Positions 2,700-61,364 of a stretch of 64,000 nucleotides of DNA are shown one piece after another. The position numbers were made by a program, and so were the translations under genes. This DNA is from Terebella lapidaria (lineage: Eukaryota; Annelida; Polychaeta; Terebellida; Terebellidae). The notes beneath the pieces were generated by a model that did no database searches, had not been told where the DNA came from, and was given only the letters and a program-made list of their open reading frames with translations. Location of the stretch: positions 72,865,499-72,929,498 of the forward strand of contig OX424555.1 in the NCBI GenBank assembly GCA_949152475.1. Reading direction: 5' to 3'. The first letter of the stretch is position 1. Every line of letters begins with the position of its first letter.

Positions 2700-4612
2700 T
2701 ATATCGTACAAAAAATATGCGTGGTTATTGGAACTATTTGAGAAAAGCCCGCAAGGTCAAATCTTTCAAATCAAATATGGTTCCCACATATTTCACAGAC
2801 TTCTTTAAATCTGCTATGCAGTTATCAGGTGCATTGTCTAAAGGGGGAGAAGTAATTGCCCAAAAGGCTGATCAATCGTATTCTGATGAACACGTCTTTG
2901 ATTCGGAGATAGTTGGCTTTACTCCTGAGCTAGTTGATGAATATATTAAATCTTTGAACACTGGTTGTTCTCCCGGTATGGATGGTATCATCTCAGAACA
3001 TTTACAGTGTGGGAACACTGAATCACTACGGAACTGTTTGTCGGATCTTTATAATATTCTGCTTAAGTATTCTTATATTCCTAATATATTATGTTAATAT
3101 ATTCTGTTGTGGTGTGATCGTTGCCATCCTTGAAAAATCTTCCTTAAATCCAAATGTTGCTCCCAACTATCGACCCATCACTCTGAGTTCAGTTCACAGT
3201 AAGGTAGTTGAGATGCGGTTACTTCCACAAAAAAAGGTTGCGGCTAGTCAGTTGGTTTTCAGGCCTAAGCGTGGCACTGCCTTCGGATGTACCTTACTGA
3301 ACGACATAATGTGATATTTTGACCTCAAGCGGAATCCACTATACTTGTGTAGTCTGGATGCAGAAAAATGTTGTGATAGCATATGGCACCCTGCCCTCTT
3401 TTATAAACCTAAAAGTAAAGTCCCAGATATATATGGGAATTCCTTCTCACATGGTAGAGTAGTCTAAGAGCTGTTGTTCGCTGGAAGGGTCAGTACAGTC
3501 ATCCATTCTGTTACTCGTGGCACAAAACAAGGCAGTATTGTATCGCCACAGCTGTTTAATTTTTTTAGGGATGAATTACTTGAAGGATTGTAGCATGCAA
3601 ACTGTGGTGTGTCTATAGGAGGTGATAACTATACATATTTTGCTTATGTCGATGGTATTACGGTATTTAGTGCGACAGTCCCCGATCTTCCGGTTTTGAT
3701 TGATAGATGTGTAGATTATGCAAAAAAATGGCGTTTTAATTTTAGCATAAATAAACTAAATGTACGGTAGTTGGAAATAATTTATTCAAGGTGGAACCAC
3801 ATTTGAACCTGGGATGTCATGTTAAAGATAATGTTTTATCTGTGGATATTATAGGTGTAACATTTAATAGTAATTGTAAATTTAACTCTCATGTTAATAA
3901 TCGCATTCAAAAATGTTACAGCATTCTTTGCGGGGCTGTGAATTTTCCTACCCAGGTGTAAACTGTGATGTGAAGTCATACATGTGGAAATCATTATGCC
4001 TACCAGTATTAACGTATGGATCTGAGTCTATTTATGTTAGTGTGAACGAAATTAAGAAAATGGAAACATGTCAGGGTAATATTATTAAACAAAGCCTAGG
4101 TCTAAGTAAGTCAGCCAGATCAACGTATTACATGCCTTAGGTATAAAGAAAATTACAGATGTCATATCACATAATGTGTTATCATTGTGGAATAGATTGC
4201 CTAGTGTAAAGTCACCAACTAGAACTCTCTGCTCATATTTCTATTCCTTGTACCTTCAAGGTGTTGTCATTCCTGGCACTTTACTGAGTAAAGTTGTTTT
4301 GTCTGGGCACTCGCCTTCAGAATGTGCTCTCCGTAGAACCAAATGTATCCCACATCATGATGTTAACATTGGTTTAGTGGACTCATTACGTATTGTTCTT
4401 CTCAGTGAAAATTTTATGAAACCCTACTCCGAAGAAAACCACCTTGCAAAACTTTTAACCAAGTCATATTGATGTGAATGTTGTACTAAAGTGCCTTAAT
4501 CTTTGAGGGGTTTACGGCCTCCATAGACTGCCTACATGTATACATTATCCTGGTGGAATGTGTGTTGTGTATGAATGGTGTTATTGTACTTTCATGTACA
4601 TGTAATATTTAA
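2700..4612 (+). pseudogene. LINE (non-LTR retrotransposon) reverse-transcriptase remnant
   Basis: Decayed second ORF of a LINE. In order: NTGCSPGMDGI upstream of the fingers (about 2958-2990), NYRPITLSSVHSKVVE (3166-3213), LDAEKCCDSIWHPALFYK (3357-3410), GTKQGSIVSPQLFNFF (3521-3568), and YVDG (about 3648-3659) where active elements have Y-A-D-D, so the catalytic loop is lost. A C-terminal part (SESIYVSVNEIKKMETCQGN, then residues to the stop at 4472) follows in shifted frames. I see a frame change near 3100 and in-frame stops at 3312, 3462, 3591 and 3768. The 3' tail runs to an A-rich stretch near 4612. Truncated at the 5' end. The clade cannot be fixed by eye. Confidence 0.85.
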
Positions 4613-25039: not shown

Positions 25040-26515
25040 TATTTTAGGTATTAGTCATTTTGTCCCGTGACCTTGAAAATAAGGCAAAAGTTAAGTTCAA
25101 GATCATGAGAATATTCAGCATATATTATTTCCCATATAGTGGCAATTGATTCCTAAGCTAGATATTAACCATTTTGTTCTCTGACCTTGAAAATGAGCTC
25201 CAGGTCAAATTCAAAGTCGCCAGAATATTCAGCAAATATCATTTCTTATATGGTCATTATTGATTCCTGAGACAATAAGCGAGATATTAGCCATTTTGTG
25301 CTCTGACCTTGAAAATATGGTCGAAAGTCAAGTTCACAGTCATGAGAATATCCAGCATAAATCATTTACGCTATGGATTCCTAAGCTGTAAATTCAATAA
25401 TAAATGAGATATTAGCCATTTTGTGCGCTGTTCTTGGAAATAAGGTCAGAGGTGGGTTCAAGGTCATGAGAATATACAACATATATCATTTCCTATATTT
25501 CCACAATTGATTCCCAGGCAGTAAAGTCGATAATAAACGAGATGTTAGCCATTTTGTGGTTTGACCTTGAAAATGATATTTAAGGTAAAATTCAAGGTCA
25601 TGACAATATTCAGCATATATCATTTCCTATGTGTGCACAATTGATTCCTAGGCTGTAAAGTCGATAATAAGCGAGATATTACCCATTTCGTGATCCGACC
25701 TTGAAATTAAAGTCAAGTTCAAGGTCACGAGAAAATCCAGCATACTTCATTTCCTATATGTGCACAGTTGATTGATTAGCTGTTAGGTCGATGATAAGCG
25801 AGATATTAGCCGTTTTGTGCTTTGACCTTGAAAACTAGGTCAAAGTTCAAATTCAATGTCATGACAATATTCAGCATATGTCACTTCCTATTTTTCCACA
25901 ATTGATTCCTAAGCTGTGAAGTCGATAATAAGTGAAATAATACCCATTTTGTGCTCTGACCTTGAAAATAAGGTAAAAATATTCAGCATATATCATTATT
26001 TCCCTATATGTGAACAGTTGATTGCTCAGCTGTTAGGTCGATAATAGGCGAGATATTAGCCATTTTGTACTTTGACCTTGAAAATGAGGTTCAAGGTCAA
26101 ACTCAAGGTCATGACAATATTCAGCATATATCATTTCCTATATGTGCACAACTGATTCCTAAGTTATAAAGTCGATAATAAGTGCTTTGACCTTGAAATA
26201 AGGTCAAATTCAAGGTCACGAGAATATTCAGCATATATCATTTCCTATATGTGCAAAGTTAATTGCTAAGCTGTACAGTCATAAGCGAGATATTAGCCAT
26301 TTTGTGCTTTGACCTTTAAATTGAAGTCCATGGTCAAATTCATGGTCATGACAATATTTCAGGATATATCATTCCCTATATGTGCACAATTGATTCCTGA
26401 GTTGTAAAGTCAATGATAACCGAGATATTCGCAAGTTTGTACTCTGACAAATTCAAGGTCACGAGAATATTCAGCATATATCATTTCATATCAGTCCACA
26501 ATTGATTCCTAATCT
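25040..26515 (+). repeat. Satellite array, about 12 units of 110-145 bp
   Basis: The unit reads roughly TTAGCCATTTTGTGCTTTGACC, TTGAAAATAAGGTCAA, TTCAAGGTCATGAGAATATT, CAGCATATATCATTTCCTAT, ATGTGCACAATTGATTCCTA, AGTCGATAATAAGCGAGATA. Copies begin near 25051, 25165, 25286, 25412, 25546, 25678, 25806, 25939, 26055, 26180 (partial), 26293 and 26428. Copies are diverged with internal deletions, so the array is old. Confidence 0.9.
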
Positions 26516-28619: not shown

Positions 28620-29091
28620 ATTACTAAATAAGTTAACATTAGTTTCACTAGTTAAGTCTATTATTGACCACAATAAAATAGTAAAGGTTTTGTCCAGTAC
28701 AGATTTCATGGGTGTAACTGAATAAGTTAACATTATTTTTAGTAGTTAAGTCTATTATTGACCACAATAAAAATAGTTAAGACAGGAAATATTTATTATT
28801 AACCTCAACAAGGTAAAGGTTTTGTCCAGTACAAATTTCATTGGTGTAACCGAATAAGTTAACATTATTTTCACTAGTTAAGTCTATTATTGACCACAAT
28901 AAAAATAGTTAAGATGAGAAATATTTATTATAAAGCTCAACAAGGTGAAGGTTTTGTCCAGTACAGGTTTCATGGGTGTAACCAATAAGGTCAACATTAT
29001 TTTTACTAGTTAAGTCTATTATTGACCACAATAAAAATAGTTAAGTCTATTATTGACCACAATTAAAATTGTTAAGATGATAAATATTTAT
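28620..29091 (+). repeat. Array of about 133-bp units, left part
   Basis: Unit marks: AAGTTAACATTA, TAGTTAAGTCTATTATTGAC, CACAATAAAAATAGTTAAGA, ATATTTATTATTGAGCTCAA, AAGGTTTTGTCCAGTA. The array continues after H3 at 32164-32480 and recurs at 36490-37005. Confidence 0.85.
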
Positions 29092-32000
29092 TAGGGCATT
29101 TCGGCCCGAAATGCCCTTATGGTTTTGTCTGGCTTTTTTTTTTCTTTTTTCTTTTTTTTTTTTTCCTTCTTTTTTTTTTTTTTTTTTTTTTACTTTCCGC
29201 CGTTTGGTTTCCGATCAATAACTCGGGAACGCCTGAACGGATCTTGTCCAAATTTGCACCACTGGTCAGAAATATTACATGGAAGACCCCTATTGTTTTG
29301 GAGGCGGCTCCGGGGTCCGTGAGGTCCGTGAGGATGAAATCAAGGTTGAATTTGAGACTTGGGTTTCCGAGCAATAACTCAAAAAGTATTCATGCAATGG
29401 CAAGTATTCTATGCATGGGAGTTCATATACCACCCGGGAAGAACCCTATTGATTTTGGGATCAATCCGTCGAACGACTTTTGACCTAGAGCTCGGAAGAA
29501 TTTTTGCTGATTCATCCTTGAGGCTTTCATGCATATCTCGGAAACGGTGCGTCGTAGAGCGAAACGGAGCTCAATTTCGGCCTCCTGGCACTAGACAAAC
29601 TAGCCTAGAGGGTATCTTGGGTCGAGACAACCCCTGGTGCCGAAATTTTTTTCGCCGACTCGGCACTTCCTGTTTGGCCGTATCTCGGAAACGGTGCGTC
29701 GTAGAGCGAAACGGAGCTCAATTCGGGCCTCCTGGCACTAGACAAACTAGTCTAGGGGGTATTATGGGTCTAGACGACCCCTGGTGTCAAATTTATTTTC
29801 GCCGACTCGGCACTTCCTGTTTGGCCGTATCTCAAAAACGGTGCGTCGTAGGGCGAAACGGAGCTCAATTCCGGCCTCCTGGCACTAGACAAATTAGGCT
29901 TATGGGTATTTTGGGTCTAGACGACCCCTGGTGTCAAATTTATTTTCGCCGACTCGGCACTTCCTGTTTGGCCGTATCTCGAAAACGGTGTGTCGTAGAG
30001 CGAAACGGAGCTCAATTCCGGCCTCCTGGCACTAGACAAACTAGGCTTATGGGCATTTTGGGTCGAGACGACCCCTGGTGTCGAATTTATATTCGCCGAC
30101 TCGGCACTTCCTGGTTGGCCGTATCTCGGAAACGGTGTGTCGTAGAGCGAAACGGAGCTCAATTCCGGCCTCCTGGCACTAGACAAACTAGGCTTATGGG
30201 TATTTTGGGTTGAGCCGACCTCTGGTGTCGAACTTTGTTTCGCCGACTCAGCACTTCCTGTTTGGCCGTATCTCGGAAACGATGCGTCGTAGAGCGAAAC
30301 GGAGCTCAATTTCGGCCTCCTGGCACTAGACAAACTAGTCTAGAAGGTATCTTGGGTCGAGACGACCCCTGTTGTCGAATTTATTTTCGCCGACTCGGCA
30401 CTTCCTGTTTGGCCGTATCTCAGAAACGGTGCGTCATACAGGGAAACGGAGCTCAATTCCAGCCTTCTGGCACTAGACAAACTAGTCTAGTGGGTATCCT
30501 GGGTCGAGACGACCCCTGGTGTCGGAATTTTTTTTTGCCCACTCGGCACTTCCTGTTTGGCCGTATCTCGGAAACGATGTGTCATAGACCGAAACGGAGC
30601 TCAATTTCGGCCTCCTGGCACTAGACAAATTAGTCTAGGGGGTATTTTGGGTTGAGACGACCCCCTGGTGTCGAATTTTGTTTCACCGACTCGGCACTTC
30701 CTGTTTGGCCGTATCTCGGAAACAGTGAGTCGTAGAGCGAAACGAAGCTCAATTCCGGCCTTCTGGTACTAGACAAACTAGTCTAGAGGGTATATTGGGT
30801 CGAGACAACCCCTGGTGTTGAATTTTTTTTCGCCGACTCGGCACTTCCTGTTTGCCCGTATCTCGGAAACGGTGCGTCGTAGAGCAAAACGGAGCTCAAT
30901 TCCGGCCTCCTGGCACTAGACAAACTAGTCTAGGAAGTATTTTGGGTCGAGACGACCCCTGGTGTCGAATTTATTTTCGCCGACTTGGCACTTCCTGTTT
31001 GGCCGTATCTCGGAAACGGTGCATCGTAGAGCGAAACGGAGCTCAATTCCGGCCTTCTGGCACTAGACAAACTAGTCTAGGGGGTATTATGGGTCGAGAC
31101 GACCCCTGGTGTCGAATTTATTTTTGCCGACTCTGCACTTCCTGTTTGGCCGTATCTCGGAAACGGTGCGTCGTAGACGAAACGGAGCTCAATTCCGGCC
31201 TCCTGGCACTAGAGAAACTAGGCTTATGGGTTTTTTGGGTCGAGACGACCCCTGGTGTCGAATTTATATTCGCCGACTCGGCACTTCCTGTTTGGCCGTA
31301 TCTCGGAAACGGTGCATCGTAGAGCGAAACGGAGCTCAATTCCTGCCTCCTAGCACTAGACAAACTAGGCTTATGGGTATTTTGGGTCGGGACGACCCCT
31401 GGTGTCGAACTTTTTTTTGCCCACTCAGGACTTCCTGTTTGGCCGTATCTCGGAAACAATGTGTCGTAGAGCGAAACGGAGCTCAATTTCGACCTTCTGG
31501 CACTAGACAAACTAGTCTAGGGGGTATTTAGGGTCGAGACGATTTTTTCGCCGACTTGGCACTTCCTGTCTGGTCGTATCTCGGAAACGGTGAGTCGTAG
31601 AGCGAAACGGAGCTCAATTCCGGTCTTCTGGTACTAGACAAACTAGTCTAGGAGGTATTTTGGGTCAAGACGACCCCTGGTGTCGAATTTATTTTTGCCG
31701 ACTCGGCACGTCCTGTTTTGCCGTATCTCGGAAATGGTGCGTCGTAGAGCGAAACGGAGCTCAATTCCGGCCTTTTGGTACTAGACAAACTAGTCTAGGG
31801 GGTATTTTGGGTCGAGACGACCCCTGGTGTTGAATATTTTTTCGCCGACTCGGCACTTCCTGTTTGACTGTATCTGGGAAACAGTGCGTTGTAGAGAGAA
31901 ACGGAGCTCAATTTCGGCCTCCTGGCACTAGACAAACTAGGCTTAGGGGTATTTTGGGTCGAGATGACTTCTGGTGCCGTATCTCGAAAACGGTGCGTCG

Positions 32001-32162
32001 TAGAGCGAAACGCAAAGATGCCTAAGGGCGGGGTCACCTAAACTTTGACTACGGACAGTTCAAGAGTCATCATGGTTCTAGACACGGTCTCTTAGGTATA
32101 TGTTAGGTAGGAATAGAACTCACACGAAATGCCCCAAGGCATCTTCAGGCCTTGACGTCTAG
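29092..32162 (+). mobile_element. Helentron/Helitron-like element H3, 3.07 kb
   Basis: The 5' hairpin is perfect: AGGGCATTTCG (29093-29103), GCC, CGAAATGCCCT (29107-29117). Near the 3' end the subterminal repeat CGAAATGCCC (32125-32134) is the reverse complement of 29094-29103. It is followed by a hairpin CAAGGC-ATCTTCAG-GCCTTG (32135-32154) and then ACGTCTAG|T, a Helitron-like CTAG terminus. It sits inside the H2 array: rejoining ATATTTAT with TATTAAGTTCAAC restores the unit at its normal length, so insertion was between T and T without target duplication. A poly-T/C tract and a 147-bp array fill it. No Rep/helicase coding. Confidence 0.75.
29510..32010 (+). repeat. Central 147-bp tandem array of H3, about 17 units
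   Basis: The unit contains GACTCGGCACTTCCTGTTTG, GCCGTATCTCGGAAACGGTG, CGTCGTAGAGCGAAACGGAG, CTCAATTCCGGCCTCCTGGC, ACTAGACAAACTAGTCTAGG and GTCGAGACGACCCCTGGTGT. Repeat period is close to 147 bp, with GTAGAGCG recurring near 29550, 29699, 29847, 29995, 30142, 30290 and so on to about 31996. Because 147 is a multiple of three, long frames of 49-residue repeats stay open on both strands. These are by-products. Confidence 0.92.
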
Positions 32163-32489
32163 TTATTAAGTTCAACAAGTTGAAGGTTTTGTCCAGTACA
32201 GATTTCGTGGGTGCAACCGAATAAGTTAACATTATTTTTATCAGTTAAGTCTATTATTGACCACAATAAAATTAGTTAAGACAAGAAATGCTTATCATTG
32301 GGCTCAACAAGGTAAAGTCCAGTAGAGATTTTATGGCTGTAGCCAAATAAATTAACATTTTCCTTGCTAGTTAAGTCTATTTTTGACCTCAATAAAAATA
32401 GTTCAGATGAGAAACTTTTATTATTGAGCTCAACAAGGTAACCTGGCCAGTAGAGATTTTATGGCTGTGACGAAATAAGTAAGGTGAAA

Positions 32490-41730: not shown

Positions 41731-42000
41731 TAGGACAATGTGAAAAGGGGGTCCTTAAATATTTTATCAAGTTAATATCAATACTTTCATTATACCATTT
41801 AAAATAACAATTCCAGTACCACAAATGGCAGTGAGTTCATCCCATTCATTACCATTATCTTGAGAAATAGTATTTCAACAAAGACGTGGTTCATGCCCTC
41901 TGAAGAATAGGGCCTATTTGAATATCATGACAATCGATTAGATTTAAAATAACAACTTCATTCATCAAGACAAATTTTTTTTGGCAATTCGTTGAGCTGT

Positions 42001-42198
42001 TTTACTTGGTTTGGGCGGATTAGTATTTCGCCCAAACAAAACTTTACTTGGTTTGGGCGGATTAGTATTTCGCCCAAACAAAATTTTACTTGGTTTGGGC
42101 GAATTAGTATTTCGCCCAAACAAAATGTTATTTTGTTCGGGCGAATTAGTTTTTCGCCCTGGCGAATTAGTATTCCGCCCGGGCGGATTATTATTTTT
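42001..42198 (+). repeat. Minisatellite of hairpin units
   Basis: Three near-identical units of about 46 bp (TTACTTGGTTTGGGCGGATT, AGTATTTCGCCCAAACAAAA), then three degenerate ones ending near GGGCGGATTATTATT. Each unit is itself a stem: TTTGGGCG...CGCCCAAA. Confidence 0.9.
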
Positions 42199-48863: not shown

Positions 48864-49614
48864 TCACATAGAGCTATGTTTGCTGACGTTGGTGGAGACC
48901 ATCGGTGTGAGATGTGTCAGACCGTTCATCTCGGTTGAACTTCCCCGTCGCTTACCGCGCCACTGTCGCCAGAAACACTTGCAGCAGCACACCGTCTTGT
49001 AGAAATGCTTCTTGAAACTCTCGTTCATGAAGCAGTAGATGATCGGGTTGACACAGCAGTTAGAGTAGCCCGAGAGTTGGAAGAAGGCCTGTGCTATGAT
49101 GTAGCGTTGGTCGTGAGGAGAGTGGATCTTGAACAGCACGTACACGTGGTATGTGAAATACGGGAACCACGACACCGCAAAAAGCACAACGATGACGACG
49201 AGCATGCGCACTATGCGCTTCTTCTCTTGCAGACGCCGGTCGCTGTCACGTGGGCAATCCGTCGTCTCCCCGATTGGCTGACGCTTCCACAGCTTGTACG
49301 CGATACGACCGTACGTGATAAATACCACCAGCACAGGAGCTAGGTATAACAGTATGTAGGTGTAAAACGTGAACACGACATTCCAGGTATAGCTGGAAAA
49401 GTATTCGACGCAGCCGTAACCCATAGTCAGGTTGGTGATCATGGTGCCGTTCTCGTCCAAGGTGAAGTCCTCGATGAACGGTTCTAGTCGTTGTATAAAT
49501 ATCTGAGGGAGAACAGACAAAAAGCCTCCAACCCAAAAGGCGAATATCAGAATGCCTGCTCTGGTCAGTGTGTGGACATGGCGAGCCCGCAATGGATGGC
49601 AGATGGCGTAATAC
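48864..49614 (-). CDS. Peptide-type rhodopsin GPCR, coding exon 2 (residues 196-445)
   Basis: Starts after TTCCAG|G and completes the split arginine codon, giving DRYYAICHP at the TM3/ICL2 border. TM4 has W223. ECL2 carries sequons at N251 and N257 and C264, the partner of C171. TM5 has P289. ICL3 is short and basic, with PIGE at 309-312 as in several peptide receptors. TM6 has FAVSWFP (341-347), so Ser replaces the usual Cys of CWxP. TM7 has NPIIY (385-389). The tail holds a Cys cluster (405-409), a likely palmitoylation site, then a Ser/Thr-rich end. FMNESFKKH after TM7 is close to QRFP-receptor-like sequences. The stop is at 48864. Total length of 445 aa is normal for the family and I see no disabling change. 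Overlapping open frames on both strands here are shadows. Confidence 0.95.
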
Positions 49615-50088
49615 CTGGAACGAAATGCGTTCATTGAGAATCGAAGAATGGTTTAGTAAAAAAAACATAGGCACAAATTATACACGTTTTGACATTTTTA
49701 TCGATAATACATCGTCATTTTTTTAAAAAAAATTTGAATTATTTGCTATGCTATCACATTGAAACGTTGGGTTACGCATGCTTAGTCAAGTTTTACAAGC
49801 GTTTTAACGGAGTTAAACCGCACCAACGGATGTGTGTTTTCTTGTTTTTTTTAGTGACCTGTGCATGTGCAGTCGAGTTGTCTGAGCCTTGCATTTGCGT
49901 TCACGGGATAAATGGTGGCTTGCACAAGTGACATGCGCATCGAACATGTGGGAACAGAGTAAATTATCATTTGTGCGTAGTAAATATTGGCCGGTTCAGG
50001 AGGCAAAAACACACACGTAGCTGTTTAAATCGTGAAGATCCGTCAGATTGAACTAGAGTTATGACCTCAAAAGTAGTTTTCAAGATGG

Positions 50089-59040: not shown

Positions 59041-59266
59041 TTCCAAGTTATATTACAATACCAATAATCGCCGCAAAGATATCAGCGAAAAACAGTGTAA
59101 ACGAGCTAAAGCAATCGGAGTATACATTCAAAACAAAAATCGCTTGGGAGTTTTTGATGATAATTTTTTTCACATAGTATTATTATGTGTAGATTACTAT
59201 TGGGTGACTTATGCGAGGCCTCAATTCAAAAACCGATATATGATGGGTCGATATGATCTTACTGAC

Positions 59267-59853
59267 CTGTCGAGGGCGATCCCGGTGAGAGTCAGGATGC
59301 TAGCGACGATTACCACACCCTGGAAGTAGCGAGTGAACTTGCACATGGCCTCGCCGAGCGTCCAGGAGCGATCGATGTACCAGACCAGCTGTAAGGGCAT
59401 GGTGACTCCGGCCACAAGCAGGTCGCTGACAGCCAGCGACACCAGGAAAGCGTTGGTCACTGTGCGCATCTTAGCGTGGCGGGCCACCACCAGGATCACC
59501 AAGGAGTTGCCGATTAGCGACAGCAGGATGATGACGGCGAACGCTATCATAATGAAGGATTTGACACCTCCCGGAAGTCCCTGCGGCATGTGGTTCAACT
59601 CGTTCCTGATAAAGTCAATCATGTCGTCCTGGTAGTAGTAACTGTAGACACTGTAGTAGTAGTCGGAGAAGTTCGTGAAATTGCTAAGTGCAATGTCGTA
59701 TAAAGGTGCGTCGTGTTCGCTGTCCAGTGCGTGAGTCCCAAGTCCGTCCACTTGTCCGCTCGCTCTGTTTGCCTCGGACGCCAAGGGCGAAGACGCGCCA
59801 GTCACAGTGAGCTCCGTCCCATTGCCGCCACCGCCGATCTCTGGGTAATCCAT
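59267..59853 (-). CDS. Peptide-type rhodopsin GPCR, coding exon 1 (residues 1-196)
   Basis: Encodes the N-terminus to the end of TM3 of a class A GPCR expected at the plasma membrane. The extracellular N-terminus of about 98 residues has sequons at N11, N58 and N61 and a Tyr/acid-rich stretch at residues 64-77. TM1 is about 99-124 with N116 (1.50), TM2 about 135-158 with D144 (2.50), ECL1 has W164, and C171 is the TM3 disulfide cysteine. The exon ends inside the DRY motif: D195 is complete and two bases of the R196 codon precede the donor AG|GTCAGT. The start at 59853 has a good context (G at -3 and +4) and gives a normal N-terminus. An in-frame Met at 60090 would add 79 residues that look untranslated. 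The sequence resembles QRFP, tachykinin, orexin and allatotropin receptors; the exact ligand family cannot be assigned by reading. Confidence 0.93.
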
Positions 59854-61364
59854 GGCCAGGAGCAAGTGGAGGCTAGCGGCTTGTAAAAAATGTCCCCCTA
59901 CGCAAGTTACACGCCGAGATGAGGCAATAGATCGATTGTTTGTCGATGCATATAACTCGAACCCTTTTGGCAAAATTAGCGAGGCAGTGAGTTTTCTGTG
60001 GAAATAGTGACTGTGGTCGCTGATCCGGTATCTCTTCCCCAATTGATTTGACTTGGGATGATGATAAAGCCCTGATCGAACCCTCCGCACTAGTTGGTTG
60101 TTAGACGGGTGTCACTCTGTCGCTTCTGCCCGCCAAATGATTCTCGGCTGGACCTGCTACGAAGCCCCGTCTCAGCAAAAAGCAGGGTAAGGGTGCGGGA
60201 AAAAATCTATCATACAATAGTAATCATTCAGCAGCTATTTTGAAATCACCAGGAGAGGAGACCTGCAGCGGCCTTTAGTGTCGATACAAATAACGCAAAT
60301 TATGTAGACGAAGACTTCCTTTTCATATATCAGTTTCTCTAGTCCATCGTAGACCATGGCGTGTTGATTGGACAGCTCAGAATCCAAGACGCTTTGGAGT
60401 GGGAGAAACGTCTTAGCAATGACATTTATACTCACCGTTCCCCTCCCAATGAAACCCAAGGCAATAGCGCAGATACCCATTGGCTCACCCATGCCACAAA
60501 TCCATTTGTTCGACAAATACCAGAAAATTCCCAGTGTCAACAATGCTGGTTATTATGGCAACAGTTGTTATTGCTCCTTGATAAACTTGTCATTGATTAA
60601 CGGAAGATAAAACAGGTGCGCGAACAGTTTGCACTACACGGAATGCTTGAGTATGATTTTTACACTTTTTGCCAACATTGTTCCAGTTCGTTTTGTTGGG
60701 AATTAATGTCTCGTGTTTTTCCATGGCAAGGAGAGTGCGTTATCGGGTGGAGATCTGTTGTGTCTGCACGTGGAGGGCGGCAGACCCCGGTGAGGCAGGT
60801 TTTGGTCCCGTGTGCCTGCCGCAGACGGCGCCGACCGCTAATGACAGAGTTACAGAATCCACGACTTTATCGCGCTGTTGACTGATGCATATGTCAATAG
60901 AAAATGTTTTTTTTAAATGATATACTACCTCTATTTCTGACAGAGTATGTACATAAAATCTCTTCAGAAGCACTCCATTTCATCAAAAAATCTACGACAC
61001 CGATAATGAGACTGGGTATAAAAGCGTCGCACAAAGAACTGTATTTCAGAAAAAAAAACACTCGATATTCGCAAGTGTATTTACGGTGTCGAACATGCCG
61101 CACAGACATACCGATCGTGTGTAGTATTGAATATCGACATTTCCAATATACCTACCTGTATCACGCTCCAACAATTTTAGAGTGGCCTAAATTTCTCCAA
61201 ACAAAGGTTGGTGTTTTTAGATAAAATGATCAGACGCAGGCGCTGGAGAATGGTTTTAAGCTGCATTCGGTCGAAAATTAAATTAAGGACATTCATGCAA
61301 CCATCATCTTGGACGTTGTCACACGTAAAAACATGATCTGACACACGACTCTACTAAAATAGTA
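59854..61364. other. Upstream region of the GPCR; possible leader exons
   Basis: 59854-60110 continues the GPCR frame upstream but is probably 5' UTR. A GC- and CpG-rich patch at 60760-60850 (GGAGGGCGGCAGACCCCGG, GACGGCGCCGACCGC) stands out and could be a leader exon or promoter on the minus strand. No TATA box or clear donor was found. Confidence 0.3.

Follow-up and report, generated by a model that had tools for sequence, protein, structure and literature searches.

The element at positions 29,092 to 32,162 of the Terebella lapidaria sequence analyzed here is very probably a non-autonomous Helitron2/Helentron (HINE), moved by the Rep-helicase of an autonomous relative. The window, by which we mean the whole stretch of 64,000 nucleotides, corresponds to C1:72,865,499-72,929,498 of a 761.6 Mb genome. 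An earlier note, made from the sequence of the window, had proposed a rolling-circle element of the Helentron/Helitron2 type, and this proposal is supported, as the terminal anatomy matches published descriptions of Helitron2 and HINEs. We base the classification on fixed ends in many copies, hairpins, constant modules, and empty sites that leave a surplus T; on a sister family built alike, with corresponding end-base differences and own-type pairing of ends; and on Helitron Rep open reading frames in the genome, with an endonuclease domain downstream of one. The features of the window copy and its surroundings are:

28681-29091, plus strand: host tandem array left of the insertion, 132-bp unit (TRF 28681-29045; empty-site alignments)
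29092-32162, plus strand: whole element as first drawn (fixed ends in 21 complete copies; empty sites)
29093-29117, plus strand: 5' terminal hairpin, 11-bp stem, 3-nt loop (fold z; 640 exact genome 25-mers)
29093-29103, plus strand: 5' subterminal (asymmetric) inverted repeat (ATIR), the first arm of the 5' hairpin (pairs with 29107-29117)
29134-29191, plus strand: T-rich tract of the left module, differing among copies (TRF; comparison with other copies)
29192-29533, plus strand: unique portion of the left module (comparison of copies)
29534-31976, plus strand: central array, 147-bp unit, 16.7 copies (TRF, 88% matches)
31977-32162, plus strand: right module (measured across 21 copies)
32125-32134, plus strand: 3' subterminal inverted repeat CGAAATGCCC (ends 28 bp before 32162)
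32135-32154, plus strand: 3' hairpin CAAGGC...GCCTTG, then ACGTCTAG (folding; genome count of the 27-mer)
32163-32478, plus strand: host tandem array right of the insertion (TRF 32191-32478, period 126; empty-site alignments)

The element is non-coding, and the open reading frames listed inside its central array follow the repeat rather than genes. It interrupts a host array with a unit of ~132 bp by TRF. Elsewhere in the window, a tandem array of ~114-134 bp units lies at 25049-26512 (TRF), and another copy of the element (L026) sits in repeats related to it, with the same empty-site pattern. A short array at 42000-42196 is built of 42- and 84-bp units of the palindrome-like GGGCGAATTAGTATTTCGCCC. 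On the minus strand, two open reading frames at 48864-49634 and 59221-60090 resemble, by eye, parts of seven-helix (G-protein-coupled) receptors.

The 5' hairpin folds at -11.9 kcal/mol as DNA (z -5.66), and none of 200 shuffled sequences folded equally well. For the 3' hairpin, significance depends on the stretch that is folded: on its own 28 nt the z-score is -2.96, with 2 of 200 shuffles equally good, while on the last 60 nt it is a non-significant -0.55 (56/200), the minimum-energy fold still being the same CAAGGC...GCCTTG hairpin. Two HINE traits are present here, namely subterminal inverted repeats (subTIRs), the 5' one being palindromic or trailed by its complement, and a short palindrome near the 3' end, downstream of the 3' subTIR. 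The same structures show the placement expected of Helitron2, with a 5' ATIR in a hairpin starting 1-2 bp from 29092 and a 3' ATIR ending 28 bp from 32162. The perfect 5' hairpin, the inverted repetition of its arm near the 3' end, the second hairpin, the CTAG terminus followed by T, and the 147-bp central array had all been described in the earlier note, and each was borne out.

Both ends recur throughout the genome. The 5' 25-mer has 640 exact occurrences and the 3' 27-mer, with one free base, has 3993, the latter including the sister family described below; the reversed-pattern controls gave 0 in both cases, and copy numbers of this size exclude chance. Among the first 100 of the 3993 3' ends, the hairpin-loop base is the window family's C in 21 and T in 79. 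When the first 300 bases were used as a query, all 40 scored matches, from 2175 candidates, began at query base 1; for the 3' 175 bases, 40 of 1201 candidates were scored. Retrieval of 20 genome regions in addition to the window yielded 21 elements with both ends, spanning 1063 to 3517 bp; no 3' end was seen in one region, L020. CTAG closes 20 of the 21 complete copies, with CTAT in L035. The left module measures 422-449 bp in all of them and the right module 155-190 bp in 20, with 693 bp in L025; the array ranges from 3 to 20 units, counting partial ones. The flanks differ among the fetched copies and the end bases stay constant. The prediction of many copies that share both ends and vary in array length therefore held.

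Two groups of copies stood out in this sample. Seven copies on different contigs (L010-L016) are identical letter for letter over their last 140 bases, and they form a recently spread subfamily of the window element. On the reverse strand of L019, element starts at 1284 and 5204 mark two copies 3920 b apart. They match at 99.8% across 1811 b, of which 399 b belong to the left flank; their three differences all lie upstream of the element, by 27, 13, and 3 b, and the first copy lacks a 3' end of its own. This pair is a segmental duplication.

To find empty sites, we joined the two flanks of each of the 21 elements and searched the whole of the retrieved sequence for matches. A junction-spanning match was found for six elements, five of them at ≥75% identity; the sixth, L034, was excluded from the five insertions because its best match reached just 72.6%. 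Exactly one surplus T remained after joining in 11 of 11 matches for the window, all at ≥75% identity, in 30/30 for L038, 21/23 for L025, 70/74 for L026, and 8/24 for L022, counts that contain repeated records, as L002-L008 overlap L019-L024. No surplus T was seen in 17 matches (16 of the 24 for L022, 1 of the 74 for L026), and five showed other gaps. The best match of each of the five insertions has the surplus T, that of L038 at 98.6% identity. The empty site is demonstrable, as the earlier note had said, but its claim that rejoining the flanks restores the host unit exactly needs correction, as the joint of 29091 with 32163 leaves one T too many. The element therefore needs one more T, making a net insertion of 3072 bp, one T beyond 29092-32162, or else there is a one-base duplication of T. 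The related claim of no target duplication stands for lengths above one ambiguous T, judged on the best empty site of each of the five insertions; a single-T duplication is compatible with them. With that qualification, these five insertions display another HINE trait, insertion at TT or T-rich sites without target duplication, and the available text of a mite HINE study describes a similar ambiguity over the number of terminal T (PMC4067079).

The insertion site was described as T|T. T was indeed found on both sides, within a longer sequence, TNATT, which can be split as T|T or as A|TT; the two are not separable by sequence because the extra T fits either end. For the loci best matching the window copy we tabulated 24 left flanks, two of them in the duplicated L019 region, and 33 right flanks, of which two belong to the sister family. 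T occupies -4 in 23 of the 24 left flanks, A occupies -2 in 23, and T occupies -1 in every one; 22 read TNAT, and G is found at -3 in one. On the right, T is at +1 in 33/33 and at +2 in 32/33. In the window outside the element, T stands two bases before ATT in 31% of cases, so the T at -4 is far from chance (~3e-11, or 8e-11 with L019 counted once). The T and A of the target are also present in the best empty sites, and the empty units nearest to L025 read TCAAT, one base away from TNATT. These counts suggest a target sharper than the TT given for HINEs in the publications consulted.

The central array was compared across 230 units. Units are 93.0% alike when adjacent in a copy, 92.6% within a copy, and 91.4% between copies, and it seems from these similarities that the array travels with its copy and is weakly homogenized. 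Compared between copies, first units agree at 95.1% and last units at 91.1%. Spacing in the window family is 147 in 108 and 148 in 67 of 228 cases; in the sister family it is 147 in 24 and 148 in 14 of 49. A query of two units, for which 40 of 3023 candidates were scored, listed places that are short runs over many contigs. The length of core nucleosomal DNA is also 147 bp. One joint reading, which we consider unlikely, is that the moving Rep recognizes a host sequence of five bases, T-(not G)-A-T-T, beyond the element's own ends instead of a simple TT, and that the unit length is held by chromatin, the latter part being drawn from the sister array, which is 75% identical and yet keeps 147.

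The sister family has the same plan as the window family, with a 5' end of TAAGGCATTTC...GAAATGCCTT that occurs exactly 2093 times in the genome (control, 0). Its left module is 77% identical to that of the window family, and its last 27 bases differ only by the T of the hairpin loop. The central array is built of a separate 147-bp unit, 75% identical over 152 alignment columns. Two of three sister 5' ends follow TNAT (L032 and L021, not L013). In comparison with the window family, the 5' end has A for G at its third base, and both the opposite hairpin arm and the 3' repeat have T for C, as read from the sister 5' ends of L013, L032, and L021 and the sister 3' ends of L021 and L031 rather than from a single whole element. 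These matching changes are a further case of the compensatory change known in Helitron2, and may represent a single event. On C1, 5' ends were paired with 3' ends within 6 kb: window-family ends met their own type in 12 of 12 pairings (16 examined) and sister ends in 45 of 45 (49 examined). In controls for the window family, the 3' end was sought upstream instead, with 1/16 on the same strand, and on the opposite strand, with 0/16. The two families are also nested in one another, with a window-family element inserted in a sister array that continues on both sides (L022) and a sister 5' end inside a window-family array (L013). On the reverse strand of L031 (1016-3402), the 3' side of an element adjoins a sister array where that array ends (3265-3402), and the left flank is not sister sequence; this is a rearranged or partly deleted nest.

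Other explanations were weighed against the HINE reading. A non-autonomous canonical Helitron (Helitron1) inserts at A|T, and the element could be read in that way as TTAGGG...CTAG: its 3' end fits the CTRR rule, A at -2 in 23 of 24 left flanks and T first in all 33 right flanks suit such a target, and the ATT sites permit A|TT as well as AT|T. The 5' end, however, is TAGGG with a hairpin and has no TC, and a 5' hairpin together with a subterminal copy of its arm at the 3' end is what separates Helitron2 from Helitron1 in the available text of PMC3627910. We rejected Helitron1 on these three features and regard it as very improbable.

The non-coding sequence and many copies would suit a MITE-kind DNA transposon with terminal inverted repeats, a reading to which we give almost no credence, since the tips are by eye not inverted repeats of each other and the best empty sites of five insertions allow a target duplication of no more than one ambiguous T. 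We give similarly little credence to an ordinary satellite array with flanks made similar by segmental duplication rather than transposition. The L019 pair is a duplication of this kind, but at other sites unrelated flanks meet the same end bases, and empty sites exist; with differing flanks, fixed ends, and empty sites, a satellite flanked by chance was rejected.

Turning to the source of the HINE's mobility, the genome was searched for an autonomous partner. The Helitron_like_N profile gave at least 150 matches, all above the cut-off (150 of 234 candidates scored), many of them in open frames of 2000-2866 codons, and Pif1_2B gave at least 100 (150 of 196 candidates scored). At the Rep loci L041, L047, and L046-L050, Helitron_like_N shares an open frame with DUF6570 and an OTU protease domain, which in two examples both precede it. 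No differences were seen among L046-L050 over the 1204 residues compared, which suggests that they have recently been active. L060, which lies ~4 kb downstream of the L042 Rep match, contains an endonuclease domain (PF03372, E 2e-6), a hallmark of Helentrons (PMC4067079). Judging from a reported frame of 2356 codons, L042 and L060 probably belong to one frame that spans ~1.9 kb between them. L059 looks endonuclease-like by eye and had no Pfam match at 3-254, and neither L061 nor L062 showed a long open frame beginning at its start. An autonomous copy with the same ends had been named as a check on the classification. It is answered in part: Rep open reading frames are present in the genome, and the element ends are absent from the 20 Rep loci and four 3' pieces in which they were sought. 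Of the 12 Rep matches on C1, 11 were compared with exact 5' 25-mers, the twelfth lying past the listed 5' ends. None of the 11 has one within 49 kb, with the nearest at 49,980 bp, as judged from 24 of 100 listed 5' ends, those around Rep loci.

From this anatomy and from work on Helitron2, Helentrons, and DINE-1, we infer a mechanism in which Rep would nick the 5' end and rolling-circle replication would displace one strand. Pairing of the 3' subterminal repeat with the 5' arm, or its binding by the same protein, would together with the 3' hairpin halt replication just past CTAG. The single strand would then be joined into a T-containing site. The array would be cargo, inherited with the copy, its length changing through unequal exchange or slippage.

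We compared the element, by description, with known systems. The available portion of the report on Cg_HINE of the Pacific oyster (PMC7492417) lists a 5' subTIR with a complementary repeat, a microsatellite-like tract, a central satellite-like array, a 3' subTIR, a 3' palindrome, and T-rich insertion sites without target duplication, and leaves the autonomous partner unresolved. The window family shares all of these structural traits, inserts at T-rich sites, and has no linked partner; it differs in its 147-bp unit, its TNATT flanks, and its tract, which is T-rich and occupies, at 29134-29191, the position of the microsatellite in other HINEs. DINE-1 and mite HINEs are non-autonomous Helentrons, according to the excerpts available from PMC4067079. 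Palindromic subTIRs (in mites), a 3' stem-loop, T-rich targets, an ambiguous number of end T, and optional tandem repeats are common to them and to the window family; in contrast, their autonomous partners are identified and the window family has none linked. For Helitron2, the available text of PMC3627910 places the 5' ATIR, which forms the 5' hairpin, 0-2 bp from the end and the 3' ATIR immediately before the 3' hairpin, at a distance of ~20-30 bp from the 3' terminus; it also reports compensatory changes between related elements and, in Helitron-1N1_CRe, a target that exceeds two bases (TTTT, then T/C). ATIR placement, hairpins, compensatory changes, and a longer target all have counterparts here. 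The target itself is different, being TNATT, and Helitron2 is described as without endonuclease in the part of PMC4067079 available, whereas one Rep locus here, unlinked to the window family, has a downstream endonuclease domain.

HINEs are assigned to the same family by at least 11 bp of identical subTIR. A full-text literature search with words from the end sequences returned no transposon paper by title, and in literature on Helentrons, 147 bp, satellites, and autonomous partners the family was not named in the text shown. As far as these searches reach, the family, its TNATT preference, and the sister pair are new, and the kind of element is already known. The element has no genes, carries a satellite-like array, and has landed inside a different tandem repeat; its relatives in oysters, flies, and mites behave alike. 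It thus adds another instance of rolling-circle elements that carry satellite-like arrays through a genome. The partner of the oyster HINEs is unresolved, and here long Rep open reading frames share the genome with the element. The worm also offers an abundant pair of families whose ends are fixed and for which empty sites are known. Coordinated base differences between them, in both hairpin arms and the 3' repeat, make the proposed end-pairing step of Helitron2/Helentron transposition testable.
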